A stretch of DNA of 64,000 bases from Akkermansiaceae bacterium (GTDB lineage: Bacteria; Verrucomicrobiota; Verrucomicrobiia; Verrucomicrobiales; Akkermansiaceae). Shown piece by piece: positions 3,847-50,173 of the stretch. The translations under genes were made by a program, and so were the position numbers. The notes beneath the pieces were generated by a model. The model was given only the letters and a program-made list of their open reading frames with translations, was not told where the DNA came from and searched no databases. How positions within the stretch are numbered: the stretch's first letter is position 1; each line of letters begins with the position of its first letter. The DNA lies in assembly GCA_018402445.1 (NCBI GenBank), contig JAGYIT010000017.1:434001-498000 (forward strand). The letters are read 5' to 3'.

Positions 3847-6591
3847 ATGAAAACAGGCACCCGTAACCTTACGAAACTCGCCGCCGTCGGCACCGCGGTC
3901 ATGCACCTTGCGCTCGCGCCGCAGGCATTTTCGCAAAACGCCAATGCCGCCCCCTACTACGCGCCGGGATACGCCCCCATTTTCAATCCCTTTCCCAACA
4001 TCACCGACAGGGGCCCGTGGCTGGTGAGGAACCTCGGAACGGTCGGCATCGGCATTCAACTCACCCGCCCCGGCATGACCATGCAGATCCACAACGTGGA
4101 GCCGGGCTCGCCCGCCGAAAAGACCGGCAAGCTCCAGAAAGGCCAGATCATCGAGAGCATCAACGGCGTGACCCTCAAGGACACCGACCCGCGCATCATC
4201 CTCGGCGACATCATCACCGAGGCGGAGGCGAAGGACGGGAAGGTCGTTCTGAAAATCAAGGACGCCGGCGATGTCACGGTGAACATCCCGGTAATGGGAA
4301 GCTACAGCCCCACGTGGCCGATGAATTGCGCGAAGTCCGACAAGATCGTCCGCAACCTCGCGGATCTCATCGCCAAACAGGACAAGCCGAGGTGGGGCTC
4401 CGTCATTTTCCTGCTCTCCACGGGTGAGGAAAAGGATCTCGAGGTGGTGAAGCGCTGGATGAAGGACATCAAGGATCTCGGCGGGCTGAATTGGTCGAGG
4501 GGTTACATGGGTTGGGGGCTTTGCGAGTATTATCTCCGCACCGGCGATCAGAGCGTGCTGCCCATCATCAAGCAGGAGACCGAGGAGCTGAAAAAACACA
4601 TGTATAGCGGCGGCTGGAGCGGACGCGGCGCGCCGGCGGCCTTCACCTACTCGGTGGGTTCCGGCCAGGTCCATGCTTCGGGTGTGAACTGCATGACTTT
4701 TCTCGTCCTGGCCAAGCTCTGCGGCGTGGAGGTGGATCAATACATGTTCGATGAGGCGTGGTCGCAGTTCTACCGCTTCGCCGGGCACGGCAACGTCGCC
4801 TACGGCAACACCTATCCCGAGGGCGGCTTCCGCGACAACGGCAAGACCAGCGGCCTCGCGATGAGCCTCGCGGCGGCGGCGATGGTCGATCCCGAGGGAG
4901 AGAAATCGGTCTATGCCAAGGCGCGCGACAACTCCTCCATGAAAGCATTCTACGCCACGAACTGGTTCCACGCCGCGCACACCGGCGGCGGCATGGGCGA
5001 GATCTGGCACCACGCGGCCGTCAGCCAGATGCGCGAGAAACGCCCCACGCCCTACCGTTCCTACATGGACACCCGCCGCTGGGTGATGGATCTCTCGCGC
5101 CGCTTCGACGGCGGCATCGGCATCGCGGGCATGGACGACCGCTACGACCGCTCCGTCACCGAAGACGACAAGGACTGGGGCACCTTTTTCGCCCTCACCT
5201 ACACCTATCCGCGCAAGCACCTCCAGCTCCTCGGTGCGCCCCGCAGCAAGTGGGCGAAGTCCTTGCCCATCCCACGCCCCTGGGGAAATGCGGCGGACGA
5301 CGCCTTCCACTCCATCGAACCCATCCCCGGCGGCGACGGGCTGACCCTTGAGGATTTGATGAACGAGAAAGTGGAGACCGACGCCTCGCTCGCGGTCATC
5401 GCGAAAATGAACGATCCCGGCCTCACGGATGAAACCATGCTCCGCTACATCCAGCACCCGGAATACGACCTCCGCAGCCTCGCGATGGATCAGGTCGTGA
5501 AACGCAGCAAGGTGGAGCTCATCGTCCCGCTGCTGAAATCGGAAGATCCGCGGCTCAGGCAGGCCGGACTCCTGGCGCTGACCGGCATGTTCAAGGGCAG
5601 CCCGCTGCCGCTCGACAAGGTCACGCCGGAGATGTTCGAGCTCGCAGGCCGCATGATCGATAACCGCGAGGAATCTTGGTGGGTTGCCATGCACGCCATC
5701 GATAGCCTCGCCCGCGGCGGCCCGGCGGTCATCGCGCCGCACCGCGACCGCTTGCTGGAGTTCCTCGAATACGACTGCACCTGGCTCCAGACCTCGGCGG
5801 TGGTCTCCCTCGCGAAAATTTCTACCGAACCCGCGCACTACAAGACCGTGCTGCCCGCGATCATCGCGAAATCCTCAGCGCTCCGGGTGGACGCGGCCAC
5901 TTACAAGACCACGAAGGCCATCGCCGACGCGATGAAGACAGCCAGCCCCGAGGTGAAGAGTTTCGCCGATCCACTCCTGAAAAAAACCTACCAGGAATTC
6001 CCCTCGGTGGTGAAGGAACCCAACACCGGCGCGATCTTCGGCGGAGGTGCGAAAACAATCCGATCCCGCATCGGCAGCATCCTCCTAGAGCTACCGGGCG
6101 GCGACGACTACGTGAGAAAGCTCCCCCGCACCACTCTGGCCTCGCACATCAGCGGCAAGGATTCCGACATGTATTCCTACAGCGGAAAGTTCGAAGCGAA
6201 CCCGGCCATGATCGGCAACTGGGCATGGGCGGTCTGGCCCGCGCCCAACAAGCCGTCGGAAATCGACACCACCATCGCGAACTACCTGAAGGGCAGGAAA
6301 GGCAAGGATCCGACCGTGGTCGATAAGCCTAAGGACTTTCTCCAGCTCATGGACGGAGGAAAGACCGGCAAATCGAGATTCTACGGCGGCTACTTTTGGA
6401 CGGGCAACATGCTGATCGGCGTCAACGACGACCAGGCGCTGAAAATGGAAGTCCGCACCGTCGAGGGGGTCGATTTCCTCATCGTCGAGCGCGGCGGCTT
6501 CAACGCCGTTCCGAAGACCGAGGAGGACGCCACCGCCACGCTCCCCGCCGACTGGCATTGCGGATACCATGTTTACGTGAGACAGAAGTGA
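3847..6591 (+). CDS. Secreted DUF6288/PDZ-domain protein
   Basis: This 914-residue protein begins with a signal peptide (basic MKTGTRNLTK, hydrophobic stretch, AFSQN cleavage region near residue 30). A PDZ-like domain follows (about 60-150) with a GIGIQL loop and EPGSPAEKTGKLQKGQIIESING. The large remainder resembles the DUF6288 proteins of Planctomycetes and Verrucomicrobia, with an alpha/alpha-barrel-like section (about 165-480) and HEAT-like helical repeats (about 500-700). The PDZ part suggests peptide or partner binding in the periplasm; no enzymatic activity can be assigned. It stands alone and is followed at once by a palindrome that may act as its terminator. Confidence 0.8.
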   Translation: MKTGTRNLTKLAAVGTAVMHLALAPQAFSQNANAAPYYAPGYAPIFNPFPNITDRGPWLVRNLGTVGIGIQLTRPGMTMQIHNVEPGSPAEKTGKLQKGQIIESINGVTLKDTDPRIILGDIITEAEAKDGKVVLKIKDAGDVTVNIPVMGSYSPTWPMNCAKSDKIVRNLADLIAKQDKPRWGSVIFLLSTGEEKDLEVVKRWMKDIKDLGGLNWSRGYMGWGLCEYYLRTGDQSVLPIIKQETEELKKHMYSGGWSGRGAPAAFTYSVGSGQVHASGVNCMTFLVLAKLCGVEVDQYMFDEAWSQFYRFAGHGNVAYGNTYPEGGFRDNGKTSGLAMSLAAAAMVDPEGEKSVYAKARDNSSMKAFYATNWFHAAHTGGGMGEIWHHAAVSQMREKRPTPYRSYMDTRRWVMDLSRRFDGGIGIAGMDDRYDRSVTEDDKDWGTFFALTYTYPRKHLQLLGAPRSKWAKSLPIPRPWGNAADDAFHSIEPIPGGDGLTLEDLMNEKVETDASLAVIAKMNDPGLTDETMLRYIQHPEYDLRSLAMDQVVKRSKVELIVPLLKSEDPRLRQAGLLALTGMFKGSPLPLDKVTPEMFELAGRMIDNREESWWVAMHAIDSLARGGPAVIAPHRDRLLEFLEYDCTWLQTSAVVSLAKISTEPAHYKTVLPAIIAKSSALRVDAATYKTTKAIADAMKTASPEVKSFADPLLKKTYQEFPSVVKEPNTGAIFGGGAKTIRSRIGSILLELPGGDDYVRKLPRTTLASHISGKDSDMYSYSGKFEANPAMIGNWAWAVWPAPNKPSEIDTTIANYLKGRKGKDPTVVDKPKDFLQLMDGGKTGKSRFYGGYFWTGNMLIGVNDDQALKMEVRTVEGVDFLIVERGGFNAVPKTEEDATATLPADWHCGYHVYVRQK

Positions 6592-6592
6592 G

Positions 6593-6620
6593 CGTGGCTG
6601 GGACTTGCAGTCCCAGCCTG
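6593..6620. repeat. REP-like palindrome (family D), possible terminator
   Basis: GGCTGGGACT-TGC-AGTCCCAGCC is a perfect 10-bp-arm palindrome starting 4 bp after the DUF6288 stop codon. The flanked sequence CGTGGCTGGGACTTGCAGTC recurs inverted and slightly diverged inside malQ (13985-14012). No T tract follows, so it is better described as a REP-like element that could stabilise the mRNA 3' end than as a classic terminator. Confidence 0.6.
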
Positions 6621-6683
6621 CTGCGGTAACGCGATCCCATCTTTCGGGTTGTTTGCACCCGTATTTCCAAGTAGCTTGCACCC

Positions 6684-13389: not shown

Positions 13390-16044
13390 ATGACAGGGAT
13401 TTTCCGGGTTGCTTACAGGACGGTGCTGGGCGAATCGCTGTGGTTAGAAATCGAGTCCGGCGGCGTGAAGCGGGAAGTGCCGATGTATTGGGCGGATTCC
13501 GAGCATTGGGAGGTGGAGATGGAATGTGCGCCGGGGACGCTGCGCTACGCTTACATTTACAAACGCGATAGGATCACTTTGCGTGAGGAGGCCGGGCGGG
13601 AGTGGGTTCTGCCGGGCGGCGCGCCCCCTCCGGCACGGGTGCTTTTCCAGGACGATTGGCGGTCGGCGGGGACGGAAGACCGGGTGTATGAGGCGAAGGT
13701 TTTCGCGGTGGTGGGCGGTGGCGCAAGGGATTTGGGGGAATTCGTTTCCAAGGGGAAAAACCATGAGTTCCGGCTCCAGATGGCGCTGCTGCCGGAGGGG
13801 CTCGTGCCTTGCGTGATCGGGAGTGCGGAGGCACTGGGGGCATGGAATTATTCCGGTGCGGTGCCGATGGTGGAGCTTGCGGAAAATTTCTGGAAAGCGG
13901 AGATGGAGCTACCGGTGGGGGAGAGGGTGGAATACAAATATGGGATTTGTAGTAGGGAAATATGGGGACAGGATGTCCCCACGACGGACTGGGACTGCAA
14001 GTTCCAGCCACGGGTCGTGAAGCTGGAGGACGGAGCGAACCGCATCCTGTTTCCGCGCGGACGTGCGGATCACGTGGTCGTCTCCGACGAGAATTTCCGG
14101 CGTAGCGCGGATCTGCGGTTCCGCGGCGCGGGGGTGGCGATCCCGGTGTTTTCGCTCCGCAGCGGCATGGGCTGCGGGGTCGGCGAGTTCGCGGATCTCA
14201 AGGCGATGGGCGATTGGGCGGCGGCGGTGGGTTTGAAAATGCTCCAGATCCTGCCGGTCAACGACACGACCTCCTCGCGGACGTGGACGGATAGCTACCC
14301 GTATTCCGCAATCAGCGTTTTCGCCCTGCATCCGCTTTACCTGCGGCTTGATGCCATGAGCTATCCGCTGGTGGATGCCGCCGCACTAGCGGCAGACCGG
14401 AAACGCCTCAATGCGCCCAAGGACGTCGATTACGAGGCGGTGATGGCGGTGAAATGGCGGGTGACCCGGGAAGTTTTCGACAAGCACCACGACGCGATCC
14501 TGCGCGACAAGGCTTTCTTGGATTTCCTGGAACGCAACCGCGATTGGGTGCTCGACTACGCGGTGTTTTCCGTGAAACGCGACGAGCATGGCACGGCGGT
14601 TTTTTCCGAATGGGGCGAGTGGGCGGCCTACGAGCCGCAGAAAGTCGAGTCGCTGGCGATCAGCACCGACGCGATGTATTTCATCTGGCTGCAATACGAA
14701 CTCGACCGCCAGCTCGCGGACGCGGTGGCTCACCTGCGCTCCGCCGGTGTCGCGCTCAAGGGCGATCTGCCCATCGGGGTGGATCGCGATTCGGTGGACG
14801 CGTGGGTTTCGCCGCACCTTTTCAGGATGGACACGCAGGCCGGCGCGCCGCCCGATGCCTTCGCCACGAAGGGCCAGAACTGGGGCTTCCCCACTTATGA
14901 TTGGGACGAAATGAAAAAGGACGGCTACGCATGGTGGCGCGCCCGTTTCACGAAACTCAGCCGCTACTTCGACGCCTACCGCATCGACCACATCCTCGGC
15001 TTCTTCCGCATCTGGCAGGTGCCGCAGGAGCACATCGAGGGGATCATGGGTTGGTTCGATCCCGCGCTGCCGGTGAGGGAGTCGGAGTTCGCGGAGCGCG
15101 GGATCGCGTTCGACCGCGAGCGCTTCTGTATGCCTTACATCCGCCGGGAGAACGTCGATCTACCAGATGAGGTGGTGCGGGATTTCCTGATTGAAAAGGG
15201 AGCTGGCCGCTACGCCCTGAAGGACGGGTTCGCCACGCAGCGCGAGATCTCGGATCACTTCGCGAAGTTCGGCGCCGGAGATTGCGCACAGCGGGAGATT
15301 CTGATGGATCTGGTGGCCGAGGTGCTTTTCATGGAGGGCGGGGAAGGGGAGTTTCACCCGCGCATGTCGATGGAGGAAACGGATTCGTTCAAGGCGCTCG
15401 ACGGGGACACGCAAGGCCGCCTGCGCGAGCTATATGTGGATTATTTTTTCCGCCGCCAGGAGGGTTTCTGGGAAGCGCAGGCCTTGGAGAAACTTCCGGC
15501 CATGCGCGGTGCGAGCGACATGTTGCTTTGCGGCGAGGATCTCGGCATGGTGCCCGCCTGCGTGCCCGGCGTGATGCGCACGCTCGGCATCCTTTCGCTC
15601 GAGATTCAGCGCTGGCCCAAGGACGGCGGCGCGGAGTTCGGCCACCCTGCGCACACGCCCTACATGAGCGTTGTGACCACCGGCACCCATGACATGTCCA
15701 CCCTACGCGGCTGGTGGTGCGAGGACGACAAGGCGCGCGCCCGCTACGCCTGGGAAATGTTCGGCAAGGCGTTTCCCGAGGAGGATCTGGCTCCGGAAAC
15801 GGCTCGCCACATCCTCGGGCAGCATCTCCACTCCCCCGCGATGTGGGCCGTTTTCCCGCTTCAGGATCTCCTCGCCATGGACGCGGAATTGCGCAGCGAC
15901 GACATCGGGGGCGAGCGCATCAACGTCCCCGCCATCACACCGTTTTACTGGAGGTGGCGCATGGAAATCCCCATCGGGAAACTCGCCGGAGCGGCAGGTT
16001 TCAACCGGAAGCTGAAGGAAATGGTCGCGGATGCGGGAAGGTGA
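13390..16044 (+). CDS. malQ: 4-alpha-glucanotransferase, DPE2-like
   Basis: From the ATG at 13390 this is an 884-residue protein; the longer track ORF overlaps menA and is not credible. Two starch-binding CBM20-like modules (about residues 1-110 and 120-225) precede a GH77 catalytic domain with FSLRSGMGCGVGEF, DSYPYSAISVFALHPLYL, DLPIGVDRDSVDAWVSP, the nucleophile region YFDAYRIDHILGFFRIWQ, MLLCGEDLGMVPACV and TGTHDMSTLRGWW. This two-CBM plan is that of plant DPE2 and some bacterial MalQ proteins, which move glucose from maltose to glucans. The second CBM20 carries an odd insertion derived from palindromic DNA (see 13963-14012). It is convergent with rimB. Confidence 0.92.
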   Translation: MTGIFRVAYRTVLGESLWLEIESGGVKREVPMYWADSEHWEVEMECAPGTLRYAYIYKRDRITLREEAGREWVLPGGAPPPARVLFQDDWRSAGTEDRVYEAKVFAVVGGGARDLGEFVSKGKNHEFRLQMALLPEGLVPCVIGSAEALGAWNYSGAVPMVELAENFWKAEMELPVGERVEYKYGICSREIWGQDVPTTDWDCKFQPRVVKLEDGANRILFPRGRADHVVVSDENFRRSADLRFRGAGVAIPVFSLRSGMGCGVGEFADLKAMGDWAAAVGLKMLQILPVNDTTSSRTWTDSYPYSAISVFALHPLYLRLDAMSYPLVDAAALAADRKRLNAPKDVDYEAVMAVKWRVTREVFDKHHDAILRDKAFLDFLERNRDWVLDYAVFSVKRDEHGTAVFSEWGEWAAYEPQKVESLAISTDAMYFIWLQYELDRQLADAVAHLRSAGVALKGDLPIGVDRDSVDAWVSPHLFRMDTQAGAPPDAFATKGQNWGFPTYDWDEMKKDGYAWWRARFTKLSRYFDAYRIDHILGFFRIWQVPQEHIEGIMGWFDPALPVRESEFAERGIAFDRERFCMPYIRRENVDLPDEVVRDFLIEKGAGRYALKDGFATQREISDHFAKFGAGDCAQREILMDLVAEVLFMEGGEGEFHPRMSMEETDSFKALDGDTQGRLRELYVDYFFRRQEGFWEAQALEKLPAMRGASDMLLCGEDLGMVPACVPGVMRTLGILSLEIQRWPKDGGAEFGHPAHTPYMSVVTTGTHDMSTLRGWWCEDDKARARYAWEMFGKAFPEEDLAPETARHILGQHLHSPAMWAVFPLQDLLAMDAELRSDDIGGERINVPAITPFYWRWRMEIPIGKLAGAAGFNRKLKEMVADAGR
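13963..14012. repeat. Two palindromes inside malQ, one REP family D
   Basis: TGGGGACA-GGA-TGTCCCCA (13963-13981) is a perfect 8-bp-arm palindrome. Three bases on, CGGACTGGGACTGCAAGTTC (13985 onward) is the reverse complement, with a few changes, of the palindrome at 6593-6620. Both lie in the coding sequence for the second CBM20 module, where family members normally have a short loop before an EDGxNR motif. Confidence 0.65.
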
Positions 16045-21182: not shown

Positions 21183-21786
21183 CGCCGTCTTTGCGGGCGA
21201 TTTCGTCGTATCGGTGGCTGGCGATGGTTTTCACCCAAGCTGGGGATACTTCCTTCGTGAAACGCAGGGCGCTGCACCATTTCCAATCCGAACCCTTAGC
21301 CACCAGTCCGTGATGAACGGCATTCTGATGGACATAATGAAGTCGCGCCAGATAGCTCGCCTGATGGGTGAGATGGGTTTCCCGGAAATTCTGCCAGAGC
21401 CGGGTTCTGCCTGGGACGTTTTCCCTGCGGTTGAGCTCCTTGGTGGTGAGGCTGTGGAGTTTCCTCACCGCCTCGCGGAGTGATTCCGCGCCGTTCGTAT
21501 TCTGAGGAATGTGGGCGACGAAATGATAGTGGTTCGACAGCACCGCCCAAGCCTCCAGCTTCCAACCGTGGTTTGCGGCGATGATAAAAAGTGTTTCCTC
21601 GAACCAATCCTTCATGGCGTCGTCCGCCAGCAAGTGTCGCTCTTCCGCCGCCCTAGCGGTCAGGAAGTAGACCCCCGCCGTGCCCAACCGATGTGGCGGG
21701 GCGTGTGGCCAATCCCTAGTTCCTTTGGCGGTCTGCTCGACATTGGGCAGAAAATCCATGGAGTGGTTATGACGGGGTGGGTGCAT
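21178..21786 (-). CDS. RAYT transposase (REP-associated tyrosine transposase), RAYT1
   Basis: This 202-residue Y1-type HUH transposase has the metal-binding motif SNHYHFVAHIP (about residues 83-93) and the tyrosine region LARLHYVHQNAVHHGLV (about 145-162). It also has LWQNFRETHLT and a C-terminal WKWCSALRF motif. RAYTs are single-copy, domesticated relatives of IS200/IS605 transposases that bind and cut REP hairpins. This one sits exactly between two near-identical REPINs (family A), the usual arrangement for a RAYT and its substrate. Confidence 0.9.
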   Translation of the reverse strand: MHPPRHNHSMDFLPNVEQTAKGTRDWPHAPPHRLGTAGVYFLTARAAEERHLLADDAMKDWFEETLFIIAANHGWKLEAWAVLSNHYHFVAHIPQNTNGAESLREAVRKLHSLTTKELNRRENVPGRTRLWQNFRETHLTHQASYLARLHYVHQNAVHHGLVAKGSDWKWCSALRFTKEVSPAWVKTIASHRYDEIARKDGE

Positions 21787-33264: not shown

Positions 33265-34278
33265 ATGGCTAGGCCGTTACGATTCCAATATGCGGGTGCC
33301 TGCTACCACGTCATGGCACGCGGCGATGGAGGGAAGACGATTTTCGAGGACGACGAGGACAGGAAGGTTTTCATCGCGCGGCTGGGGGAGGTTTGCGGGC
33401 GTTGCGGGTGGAAGGTTCATGCGTGGGTGCTGATGGGCAACCATTTCCACCTGCTGCTGGAGACTCCGGAAGCGAATCTCGTGGATGGAATGAAGTGGCT
33501 GCTCGGGACGTTTTCCCAGGGATGGAACCGGGTGAGGCGGCGGCGCGGGCATGTTTTCCAAGGGCGATACAAATCGGTGCCGGTGAACGGGGAGGAGACG
33601 GGTGCGTATTATTTCCGGATCGTGGCGGATTACATCCACCTCAATCCCGCGCGGGCCGGTCTTGCGGGAGGGGAGCGCGGGAAGCTGGCGGATTACCGGT
33701 GGAGCAGCCTGGGAGCGTATGCGAAGGGCGTGGGGCCGGATTGGCTGGTGATGGAGCGGGTGTTGCGGGCGTTCGAACTGGCGGAGGACGGGCGCGGGCG
33801 GCGGGCGTATGTGGCGTGGCTGGAGGCGAGGGCAAGGGAAGACGGTGGCAAGATCAACGATGAGGCGCAGGCCGCGTTGCGGCGGGGCTGGTATCTGGGG
33901 GAAGAGAGTTTCAAGAACAAGCTGCTGGCGATGCTGGATCGGGTGCGGGGCGGCAGGAATCCGCGCAACACAACGGGTGGAGCCAAGAAGGATCACGGGG
34001 AAGCCGAGGCCGGGAGGTTGGTTCGGAAAGCGGAAAAGGTCTTGGAATTGCCGACGGGAAGACGGTCGATGGAGGGATTGCGGAAGGGAGATGAGAGAAA
34101 AGTTCTGCTCGCCGCCCTGCTAAGACGGAGGACATCGGTGGGATTGGGGTGGATATCGGAAAAACTGGTGATGGGGCATCCGGGCTCGGTGAGTCGTCTG
34201 GTGGGAGGGATAGCGAAGAATCCTGAGCTGGCGCAGAGGTTGGAGGAATTGGAAAATATGTTAAAATGCGAGGACTGA
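33265..34278 (+). CDS. RAYT-type Y1 transposase, RAYT2
   Basis: The ATG at 33265 gives 337 residues. N-terminal ARPLRFQYAGACYHVMARGD, HUH motif GNHFHLLLETP (about residues 57-67), FQGRYKSVPV and the tyrosine region YIHLNPARAGLA (about 121-132) define the Y1/RAYT core. A long C-terminal extension (about 180-337) carries a helix-turn-helix-like part, as in the larger RAYT subgroup. It is flanked by inverted copies of an approximately 30-bp sequence; the right copy encodes the last residues (NMLKCED). Confidence 0.9.
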   Translation: MARPLRFQYAGACYHVMARGDGGKTIFEDDEDRKVFIARLGEVCGRCGWKVHAWVLMGNHFHLLLETPEANLVDGMKWLLGTFSQGWNRVRRRRGHVFQGRYKSVPVNGEETGAYYFRIVADYIHLNPARAGLAGGERGKLADYRWSSLGAYAKGVGPDWLVMERVLRAFELAEDGRGRRAYVAWLEARAREDGGKINDEAQAALRRGWYLGEESFKNKLLAMLDRVRGGRNPRNTTGGAKKDHGEAEAGRLVRKAEKVLELPTGRRSMEGLRKGDERKVLLAALLRRRTSVGLGWISEKLVMGHPGSVSRLVGGIAKNPELAQRLEELENMLKCED

Positions 34279-49066: not shown

Positions 49067-50173
49067 ATGAGCAGTAAGCGATTCCTGAGTCCTTGGAAAA
49101 ATTCGTTGGAGAAGCCGGTGATTTATCACTGCGTTTCGCGGGTGGTGGATCGGCGGTTTGTGTTGAAGGAGGAGGAGAGGGAGAAGTTCCGCATGTTCAT
49201 GCGGATGGTTGAGAATTTCAGCGGTTGCCGGGTTCTTTCCTACTGCCTGATGTCCAACCACTTCCACATTCTCCTCGAAGTGCCGCCCGCGCCTGCCGAG
49301 GGCGTTTCCGATGGGGAAATCCTGCGGCGCTTGGGGGCGATTTACAGCGAGGCGGCGGTGGCCGCGATCGCCCGTGAAATGGAGGATGCTAGGGCGGAGG
49401 GAGCGGAGGATTTGCTGAGGGAAATCCGTCTGCGCCACACGCGGCGCATGCACGACCTCAGCGAGTTCATGAAAGCTCTGCTGATCCGTTTCACCCGTTG
49501 GTTTAACCGCACGCACCAGCGCACCGGAACCTTGTGGGAAGATCGCTTCAAGAGCGTGATTGTGGAAAGCGGTTTGGCGGCGCGAACTATGGCGGCATAC
49601 ATCGACCTGAATCCGGTCCGTGCGGGGATGGTGGAAGACCCGGCGGAGTATCGCTGGAGCAGCTATGGCGAGGCGGTGGGAGGGGGGAAAAAGGGAAATG
49701 GGAAGAAGGCGCGGGAAGGATTGGTGCGGGCGAACCGATGCGACAAAGGGGTGGGATTTGATGCCACGCAATGGCTGGAAGTGGCGAAGAGTTACCGGAT
49801 TCTATTGGGAATGGCGGTGGCGAGGAAGCGCGGGAAGGCGAAGCTGGAAGAGGTGATGGGGAAAGGGAAAGCCCCTGGGAAAGCAGCGGAGATGCGGAAC
49901 ATGAACATGGAGGAAATCATCGAGCATCTAGAGAAAACAGGCCAGACGATAGGCCTGCCCGACCTGACTGCGGCGAAGATATTGAGGATGCGGGTGAGGT
50001 ATTTTACGGACGGAGCAGTGATCGGCAGCAAGGAGTTCGTGAACGAGGCGTTTGCGGGAGCGCGGGAAAGGTTTTCCAAGAGGAGGAAGGACGGGGCGCG
50101 ACGGATGCGCGGCAGCGGCGCGGCGGCGAAGGGTTTGCTATGGAGTATTCGGGATCTGCGGGTGGGGGTGTGA
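49067..50173 (+). CDS. RAYT-type Y1 transposase, RAYT3
   Basis: The ATG at 49067, with GGGGGA directly upstream, gives 368 residues. Features: NSLEKPVIYHCVSRVVDRRF, HUH motif SNHFHILLEVP (about residues 63-73), LWEDRFKSVIV and the tyrosine region YIDLNPVRAGMV (about 177-188). It has a long insertion between these motifs and a basic C-terminal extension. This matches the larger RAYT group seen in Verrucomicrobia. It is clearly different from RAYT1 and RAYT2. No matching repeat pair is evident around it. Confidence 0.88.
   Translation: MSSKRFLSPWKNSLEKPVIYHCVSRVVDRRFVLKEEEREKFRMFMRMVENFSGCRVLSYCLMSNHFHILLEVPPAPAEGVSDGEILRRLGAIYSEAAVAAIAREMEDARAEGAEDLLREIRLRHTRRMHDLSEFMKALLIRFTRWFNRTHQRTGTLWEDRFKSVIVESGLAARTMAAYIDLNPVRAGMVEDPAEYRWSSYGEAVGGGKKGNGKKAREGLVRANRCDKGVGFDATQWLEVAKSYRILLGMAVARKRGKAKLEEVMGKGKAPGKAAEMRNMNMEEIIEHLEKTGQTIGLPDLTAAKILRMRVRYFTDGAVIGSKEFVNEAFAGARERFSKRRKDGARRMRGSGAAAKGLLWSIRDLRVGV

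Follow-up and report, generated by a model that had tools for sequence, protein, structure and literature searches.

The closest described relatives of the element analysed here are the GTAG REPs and REPtrons (PMC3733652), with which it shares a GTRG tag, a short hairpin, many copies that lie mostly outside recognised genes, a RAYT located between inverted REPs, and in-frame genic copies, uvrA included, in a verrucomicrobium. Intragenic REPs have been documented before, for instance in the uvrA genes of Opitutus terrae (Di Nocera 2013, PMC3733652), and the palindromic elements of Rickettsia and Wolbachia (RPE, WPE) likewise represent palindromic DNA that lies in frame in many unrelated protein genes. 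The insertion in malQ described below is thus of an already known kind. CGTC-type elements (RPE-4, RPE-6) have no associated transposase (PMC3733652), whereas the present element has a likely cognate one. It has also been reported that GTAG-tagged hairpins are cut as single strands by TnpA_REP, that GTGG can serve as the guide as well, shifting cleavage to CA or CC, and that the REPs of S. maltophilia have the same design of 8-bp stem and 3-nt loop that is seen here (PMC8266576).

Two features distinguish the present system from GTAG REPs and REPtrons. First, the tagged hairpin is followed, after TCCGTCG, by a second hairpin that is untagged and covaries. Second, its RAYT does not stand alone but lies within a gene for an essential enzyme. 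In the freely accessible journal papers searched, no description of RAYTs carried in frame by core enzymes came up. The new aspect therefore seems to be the source of the repeat, a likely cognate RAYT located in frame inside ispG.

A compound REP-type element in malQ

The window is a stretch of 64,000 nucleotides from the genome of a freshwater verrucomicrobial bacterium (G000, assembly 87.8% complete), which was compared with other genomes, mostly MAGs. The relevant features are as follows.

13390..16044, plus strand: malQ, GH77 4-alpha-glucanotransferase with N-terminal CBM20 modules (Pfam PF02446, PF00686; dN/dS); 13390 is the probable start
13810..13953, plus strand: CBM20 Pfam match, profile positions 19-70 of 97, ending just before the insertion (Pfam; AlphaFold and Foldseek CBM20 matches)
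13963..14013, minus strand: full-length 51-bp REP-type element, in frame in malQ (codons 278-294, IWGQDVPTTDWDCKFQP), 81 bits to covariance model R1
14008..14013, minus strand: CC and GTGG tag (REP tetranucleotide), from the alignment of 36 family copies
13989..14007, minus strand: hairpin 1, CTGGAACTTGCAGTCCCAG, 8-bp stem and 3-nt loop; a G>A change disrupts one pair in the malQ copy
13982..13988, minus strand: linker TCCGTCG, conserved in 31 of 36 copies
13963..13981, minus strand: hairpin 2, TGGGGACATCCTGTCCCCA, with compensatory changes in its helix across the family
6594..6616, plus strand: intergenic partial copy with tag GTGG and hairpin 1; weak model match at 6588-6644

A sequence-only reading of this DNA had reported two palindromes back to back in malQ. 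Both are present; in fact they form a single compound element of 51 bp, which reads CCGTGG-CTGGAACTTGCAGTCCCAG-TCCGTCG-TGGGGACATCCTGTCCCCA on the minus strand (14013..13963). Genome searches returned 36 matches for the first palindrome and 49 for the second, a 19-mer allowed up to two mismatches (some places being counted on both strands), and none for the control of the first or the reversed control of the second. Within the window, three matches to the second palindrome were detected at up to three mismatches, compared with 0.04 expected. Almost every match of the first palindrome in the genome adjoins the second, with the same 7-base linker. Since the two co-occur in nearly all copies, they constitute one element; this was settled by aligning the copies and not by the palindrome search alone. 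The second palindrome had also been described as an inverted, diverged copy of the intergenic one. It is inverted and only one base off 6598-6616, but the intergenic copy matches the element well in its first half only (35 bits).

A covariance model (R1) built from 36 copies detected about 43 copies of at least 49 bits in the same genome, as well as weaker ones below that score. Seven copies were judged to lie inside recognised genes, and the remainder were taken as extragenic by elimination rather than from a full gene annotation. The copies are thus dispersed and mostly extragenic, as are those of GTAG-type REPs. The family also has a GTAG-like tetranucleotide at the foot of a structurally conserved short palindrome: the tag is GTGG, a variant of the canonical GTAG, in 31 of the 36 copies, GTAG in four and GCGG in one. 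In the alignment 98.6% of cells are paired, and covariation reaches 0.155 compared with 0.034 in shuffles. Hairpin 2 contains 26 cells changed on both sides, versus 5.0 in shuffles, which is also far beyond slid controls; hairpin 1 is nearly invariant and therefore uninformative in this respect. The CGTC tag of the other REP superfamily is present in the linker, directly 5' of hairpin 2 (A1 columns 30-36); the loop of hairpin 2 is 3 nt long and its foot pairs vary, and that type has a loop of 4-5 nt and stems of 8-9 bp that start with A-T.

The element is predicted to fold into strong single-strand hairpins (DNA folding z = -6.5), which would suit palindromes that arose in place, by chance or as a regulatory structure such as an mRNA hairpin. 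We give this origin almost no credence. The 51 bp, linker and tag included, correspond to a compound family dispersed over the genome; matches expected by chance number far below one, and this agreement refutes an origin in place. Moreover, the malQ segment is missing from relatives, and in one orthologous copy the repeat has eroded without closing the protein frame.

No stop codon interrupts the consensus in any of the six frames, a property shared by 26 of the 36 copies but by only 8% of shuffled sequences and 13% of 52-mers from the window. Such openness helps explain how insertions in genes survive. By tag, hairpin, copy number and RAYT association, the earlier description of an in-frame REP-like insertion is borne out. 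It is also extended, as malQ is one of several genes with in-frame insertions, the family is a GTRG-type REP family, and a likely transposase lies in ispG.

Filled, eroded and empty sites in protein genes

The element occupies 17 codons, residues 278-294 of the longest malQ frame. In a formal alignment of malQ from 12 genomes of the genus, an exact 15-residue gap was observed in ten, whereas G000 and G005 are filled at the same site. The gap agrees with the roughly 15 added residues proposed earlier, although the element itself is longer. The net gain is 45 bp in malQ and also in ppc, less than the 51-bp element; the ends of insertions in genes are blurred by diverged flanks. Eight further genomes have a malQ match, and the site is readable in five of them: G081 has an eroded copy, whose palindromes have decayed while the frame is still open, and G076, G015, G001 and G063 are without the element. 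The remaining three (G078, G030 and G068) failed the motif test and were left out of the counts. Among readable sites in relatives, 2 of 16 are filled and 14 of 16 are empty; these 14 lack the segment altogether, rather than having one of the same length without palindromes, which would have refuted the earlier reading. The G000 and G005 copies differ at one foot pair of hairpin 2 by a change on both sides (G-C versus C-G). Such filled, eroded and empty alleles make the fate of repeat-born protein sequence traceable.

MalQ is still under purifying selection. Comparison of the GH77 part with that of G005 gave a dN of 0.08 and a dS of 0.47, and Pfam covers GH77 in full, which rules out a pseudogene. 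A paralogue with 35% identity is also present in G000. In an AlphaFold model of low confidence (mean pLDDT 64.7), the insert is a disordered loop between two CBM20 strands, with pLDDT below 50 in the loop. Selection of the insert for altered glucan binding or specificity could be suggested by its location in a CBM20 loop and its persistence in three species. We regard this as improbable, because the insert is apparently absent from the close relative G076, its loop is modelled as disordered, and the same repeat also occurs in unrelated proteins. The loop looks tolerated rather than useful, and is presumably a passenger. Repeat-driven protein change, as proposed earlier, is upheld as to structure only, and not as to function.

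In-frame copies were also identified in four other genes, named from recognisable sequence and homologues in relatives and not by Pfam. G005 has an empty ppc site in a protein fragment that matches with 92% identity. In mfd, the site is filled in G008 and G005, and the element is absent from G004. In a U32 peptidase gene, the site is filled in G008, eroded in G017 and short in G004, and in a uvrA-like gene the length of the loop varies among relatives. Long open frames across the element in L109, L020, L031, L043 and other loci were dismissed on inspection as spurious high-GC frames with no recognisable gene sequence. The uvrA-like gene (L120 1501-5583) also contains two in-frame copies of another repeat-like stretch, SDQSSVISG...SSPITDH.

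A RAYT within the ispG frame

In G000, one frame of 841 aa, both halves of which match GcpE/IspG (Pfam), contains a Y1_Tnp domain with two copies of the element in inverted arrangement on its two sides, separated by about 700 bp.

L101 2596-5118 (G000 C4): ispG with in-frame RAYT and inverted REPs

Another open frame of this locus (L101 122-1231) contains a tandem repeat, in which a unit of roughly 67 residues occurs about five times in near-identical form.

RAYTs embedded at the same place in ispG were found in many Akkermansiaceae genomes (L104-L108, L184-L202). A search for the RAYT in named GTDB genomes gave 19 relatives with no less than 50% identity; each was located in an ispG locus, and none was free-standing. 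They come from Akkermansiaceae, Verrucomicrobiaceae and Prosthecobacter-, Akkermansia- and Luteolibacter-labelled MAGs; several of the 19 loci run into a contig end, and in L192 the frame is broken on the N side. The HUH (PNHVH or PNHIH) and Y---NP motifs that define RAYT/TnpA_REP are retained in 14 of 14 ispG-embedded copies. The only PDB match to the RAYT is TnpA_REP 4er8 (E = 1e-6), which relates it to class 2 TnpA_Y1. Among ispG-embedded copies, neither a start codon conserved across species nor, in a simple test, a Shine-Dalgarno-like motif was found before the RAYT domain. The AlphaFold model of the IspG-RAYT fusion reached a pTM of only 0.31 and does not allow interpretation.

The embedded RAYT is under purifying selection, with a median pairwise omega of 0.13 (20 pairs, dS <1.5) compared with 0.12 for the C-terminal part of the host. 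In the closest species, its dS is similar to that of the host, which fits vertical descent. HUH and Y---NP motifs, REP flanks and purifying selection are all shared with described RAYT/TnpA_REP proteins (class 2 Y1 HUH; PDB 4er8). In contrast to those, the present RAYT is apparently expressed only as an in-frame domain of IspG, and it has kin in LeuRS, AlaRS, MetH, CarB, ClpB and HsdR.

Several observations point to this RAYT as the mobiliser of the element. A close ispG RAYT is present in 7 of 9 genomes with an element of at least 60 bits versus 2 of 28 others (Fisher p = 1e-4, uncorrected for phylogeny). The pairing of element and RAYT at ispG recurs in several species, although the repeats have diverged in more distant ones, and, as in described systems, the RAYT is flanked by inverted REP copies; among the loci examined, the ispG RAYT is the only one bracketed on both sides in this way. 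Alternatively, the insertion could have been mobilised by another, free-standing Y1_Tnp, the ispG RAYT being a fixed relic and its flanking REPs passengers. There are 32 Y1_Tnp matches in G000, several of them near element copies (C5:703800, C16:131907), and two genomes (G014 and G025) have high-scoring elements where no close ispG-type RAYT was found. The unique and recurrent bracketing, the retained catalytic motifs and the low omega argue against such a relic, and we consider this alternative rather doubtful.

It is very likely that the malQ segment is a bipartite REP that transposed in a recent common ancestor of G000, G005 and G081 and was kept as whole codons in a loop of the starch-binding module, with the ispG-embedded RAYT as its most likely mobiliser. 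According to this model, a RAYT/TnpA_REP-type HUH transposase, made as an in-frame part of IspG, would find its target in the tagged hairpin of single-stranded DNA, cut next to it and insert copies mainly at intergenic sites and now and then in frame into genes. The malQ copy would have been kept because it added only whole codons, in a loop. Translation of the RAYT as an IspG fusion, its transposase activity, its cleavage chemistry on the element and its movement of malQ-type REPs are what we would predict from these data. The tag has CC immediately before it in 21 of 36 copies, and hairpin 2 is followed by CT or CA in 26 of 36, which in view of the published GTGG cleavage at CA or CC is suggestive only.

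Embedded RAYTs in other core enzymes

In-frame RAYTs were also identified in other genes.

L102 669-4130: metH
L103 1869-5318: alaS
L171 (G017): leuS
L224: carB
L253: clpB
L227: hsdR

At the metH locus, gltX (L102 4161-5486) encodes a GluRS with an in-frame stretch, SGGDLRSPSSSSS, that resembles a repeat adjoining the RAYT in metH.

Among the 150 matches listed in a genus-wide RAYT search, 78 were in open frames of at least 700 aa and 63 in frames below 350 aa. Pfam assigned the hosts at eight loci to IspG, MetH, AlaRS, LeuRS, CarB, HsdR (two loci) and a DUF1156 protein. Y1_Tnp was above the Pfam threshold in six of these; the RAYTs in AlaRS and in the second HsdR were called from genome searches and not from Pfam. 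Additional cases across the order, named from recognisable sequence and without Pfam confirmation, include LeuRS (families f1 to f4), CarB, ClpB, MetH and IspG, in the last case with the insertion at another site. Outside the genus, many RAYTs are ordinary free-standing genes. Three frames (L215, L216 and L217) each appear to contain two RAYTs, and a distant RAYT was detected in a 1505-aa frame from an uncultured Verrucomicrobia (L203), whose host gene may correspond to UDP-sugar pyrophosphorylase, which it resembles in sequence.

As with inteins and IStrons, a mobility gene is lodged in an important gene that remains usable. Unlike in those systems, no splicing domain (Pfam) or intron (Rfam) was detected in the loci scanned, and the insert appears to be retained in the protein. 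Specifically, Pfam revealed no protein-splicing (Hint) domain in the eight embedded-RAYT proteins. It could be argued that the RAYT is removed at the RNA level or bypassed by the ribosome, in an intron- or byp-like manner, and the host enzyme made without the insert, given that the flanking inverted REPs could pair and join the ends of the insert and that the hosts are enzymes expected to be essential. However, no Rfam intron reached the gathering threshold in six embedded-RAYT loci, and the frame is intact across both REP flanks and repeat expansions in nearly all complete loci, L192 being the exception; removal would not need such continuity. We therefore consider removal or bypass unlikely. 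A second, insert-free copy of ispG, alaS, metH, ppc or mfd was not found in the 87.8% complete G000 assembly, where these five genes appear to be single-copy.

Retention of the RAYT within its host enzyme is the reading that we favour. Probably, REP transposases of Verrucomicrobiales are commonly in-frame domains of core enzymes (IspG, LeuRS, AlaRS, MetH, CarB, ClpB). The ispG lineage, embedded-only as sampled, would then depend on translation of its host and be hard to lose without damage to the enzyme; the REPs that it generates would spread and sometimes extend proteins such as MalQ. RAYTs locked into core enzymes in this way offer a testable answer to how these genes persist for long without being classical selfish insertion sequences. 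Judging from sequence, some essential enzymes of the order appear to bear a transposase domain that cleaves DNA. Annotation can be misled by this, and questions arise on folding, regulation and the control of transposition.

Three of the Y1_Tnp matches lie in the window itself, at 21388-21645 (minus strand), 33301-33636 (plus strand) and 49121-49291 (plus strand), and the frames of two of them measure 351-383 aa.
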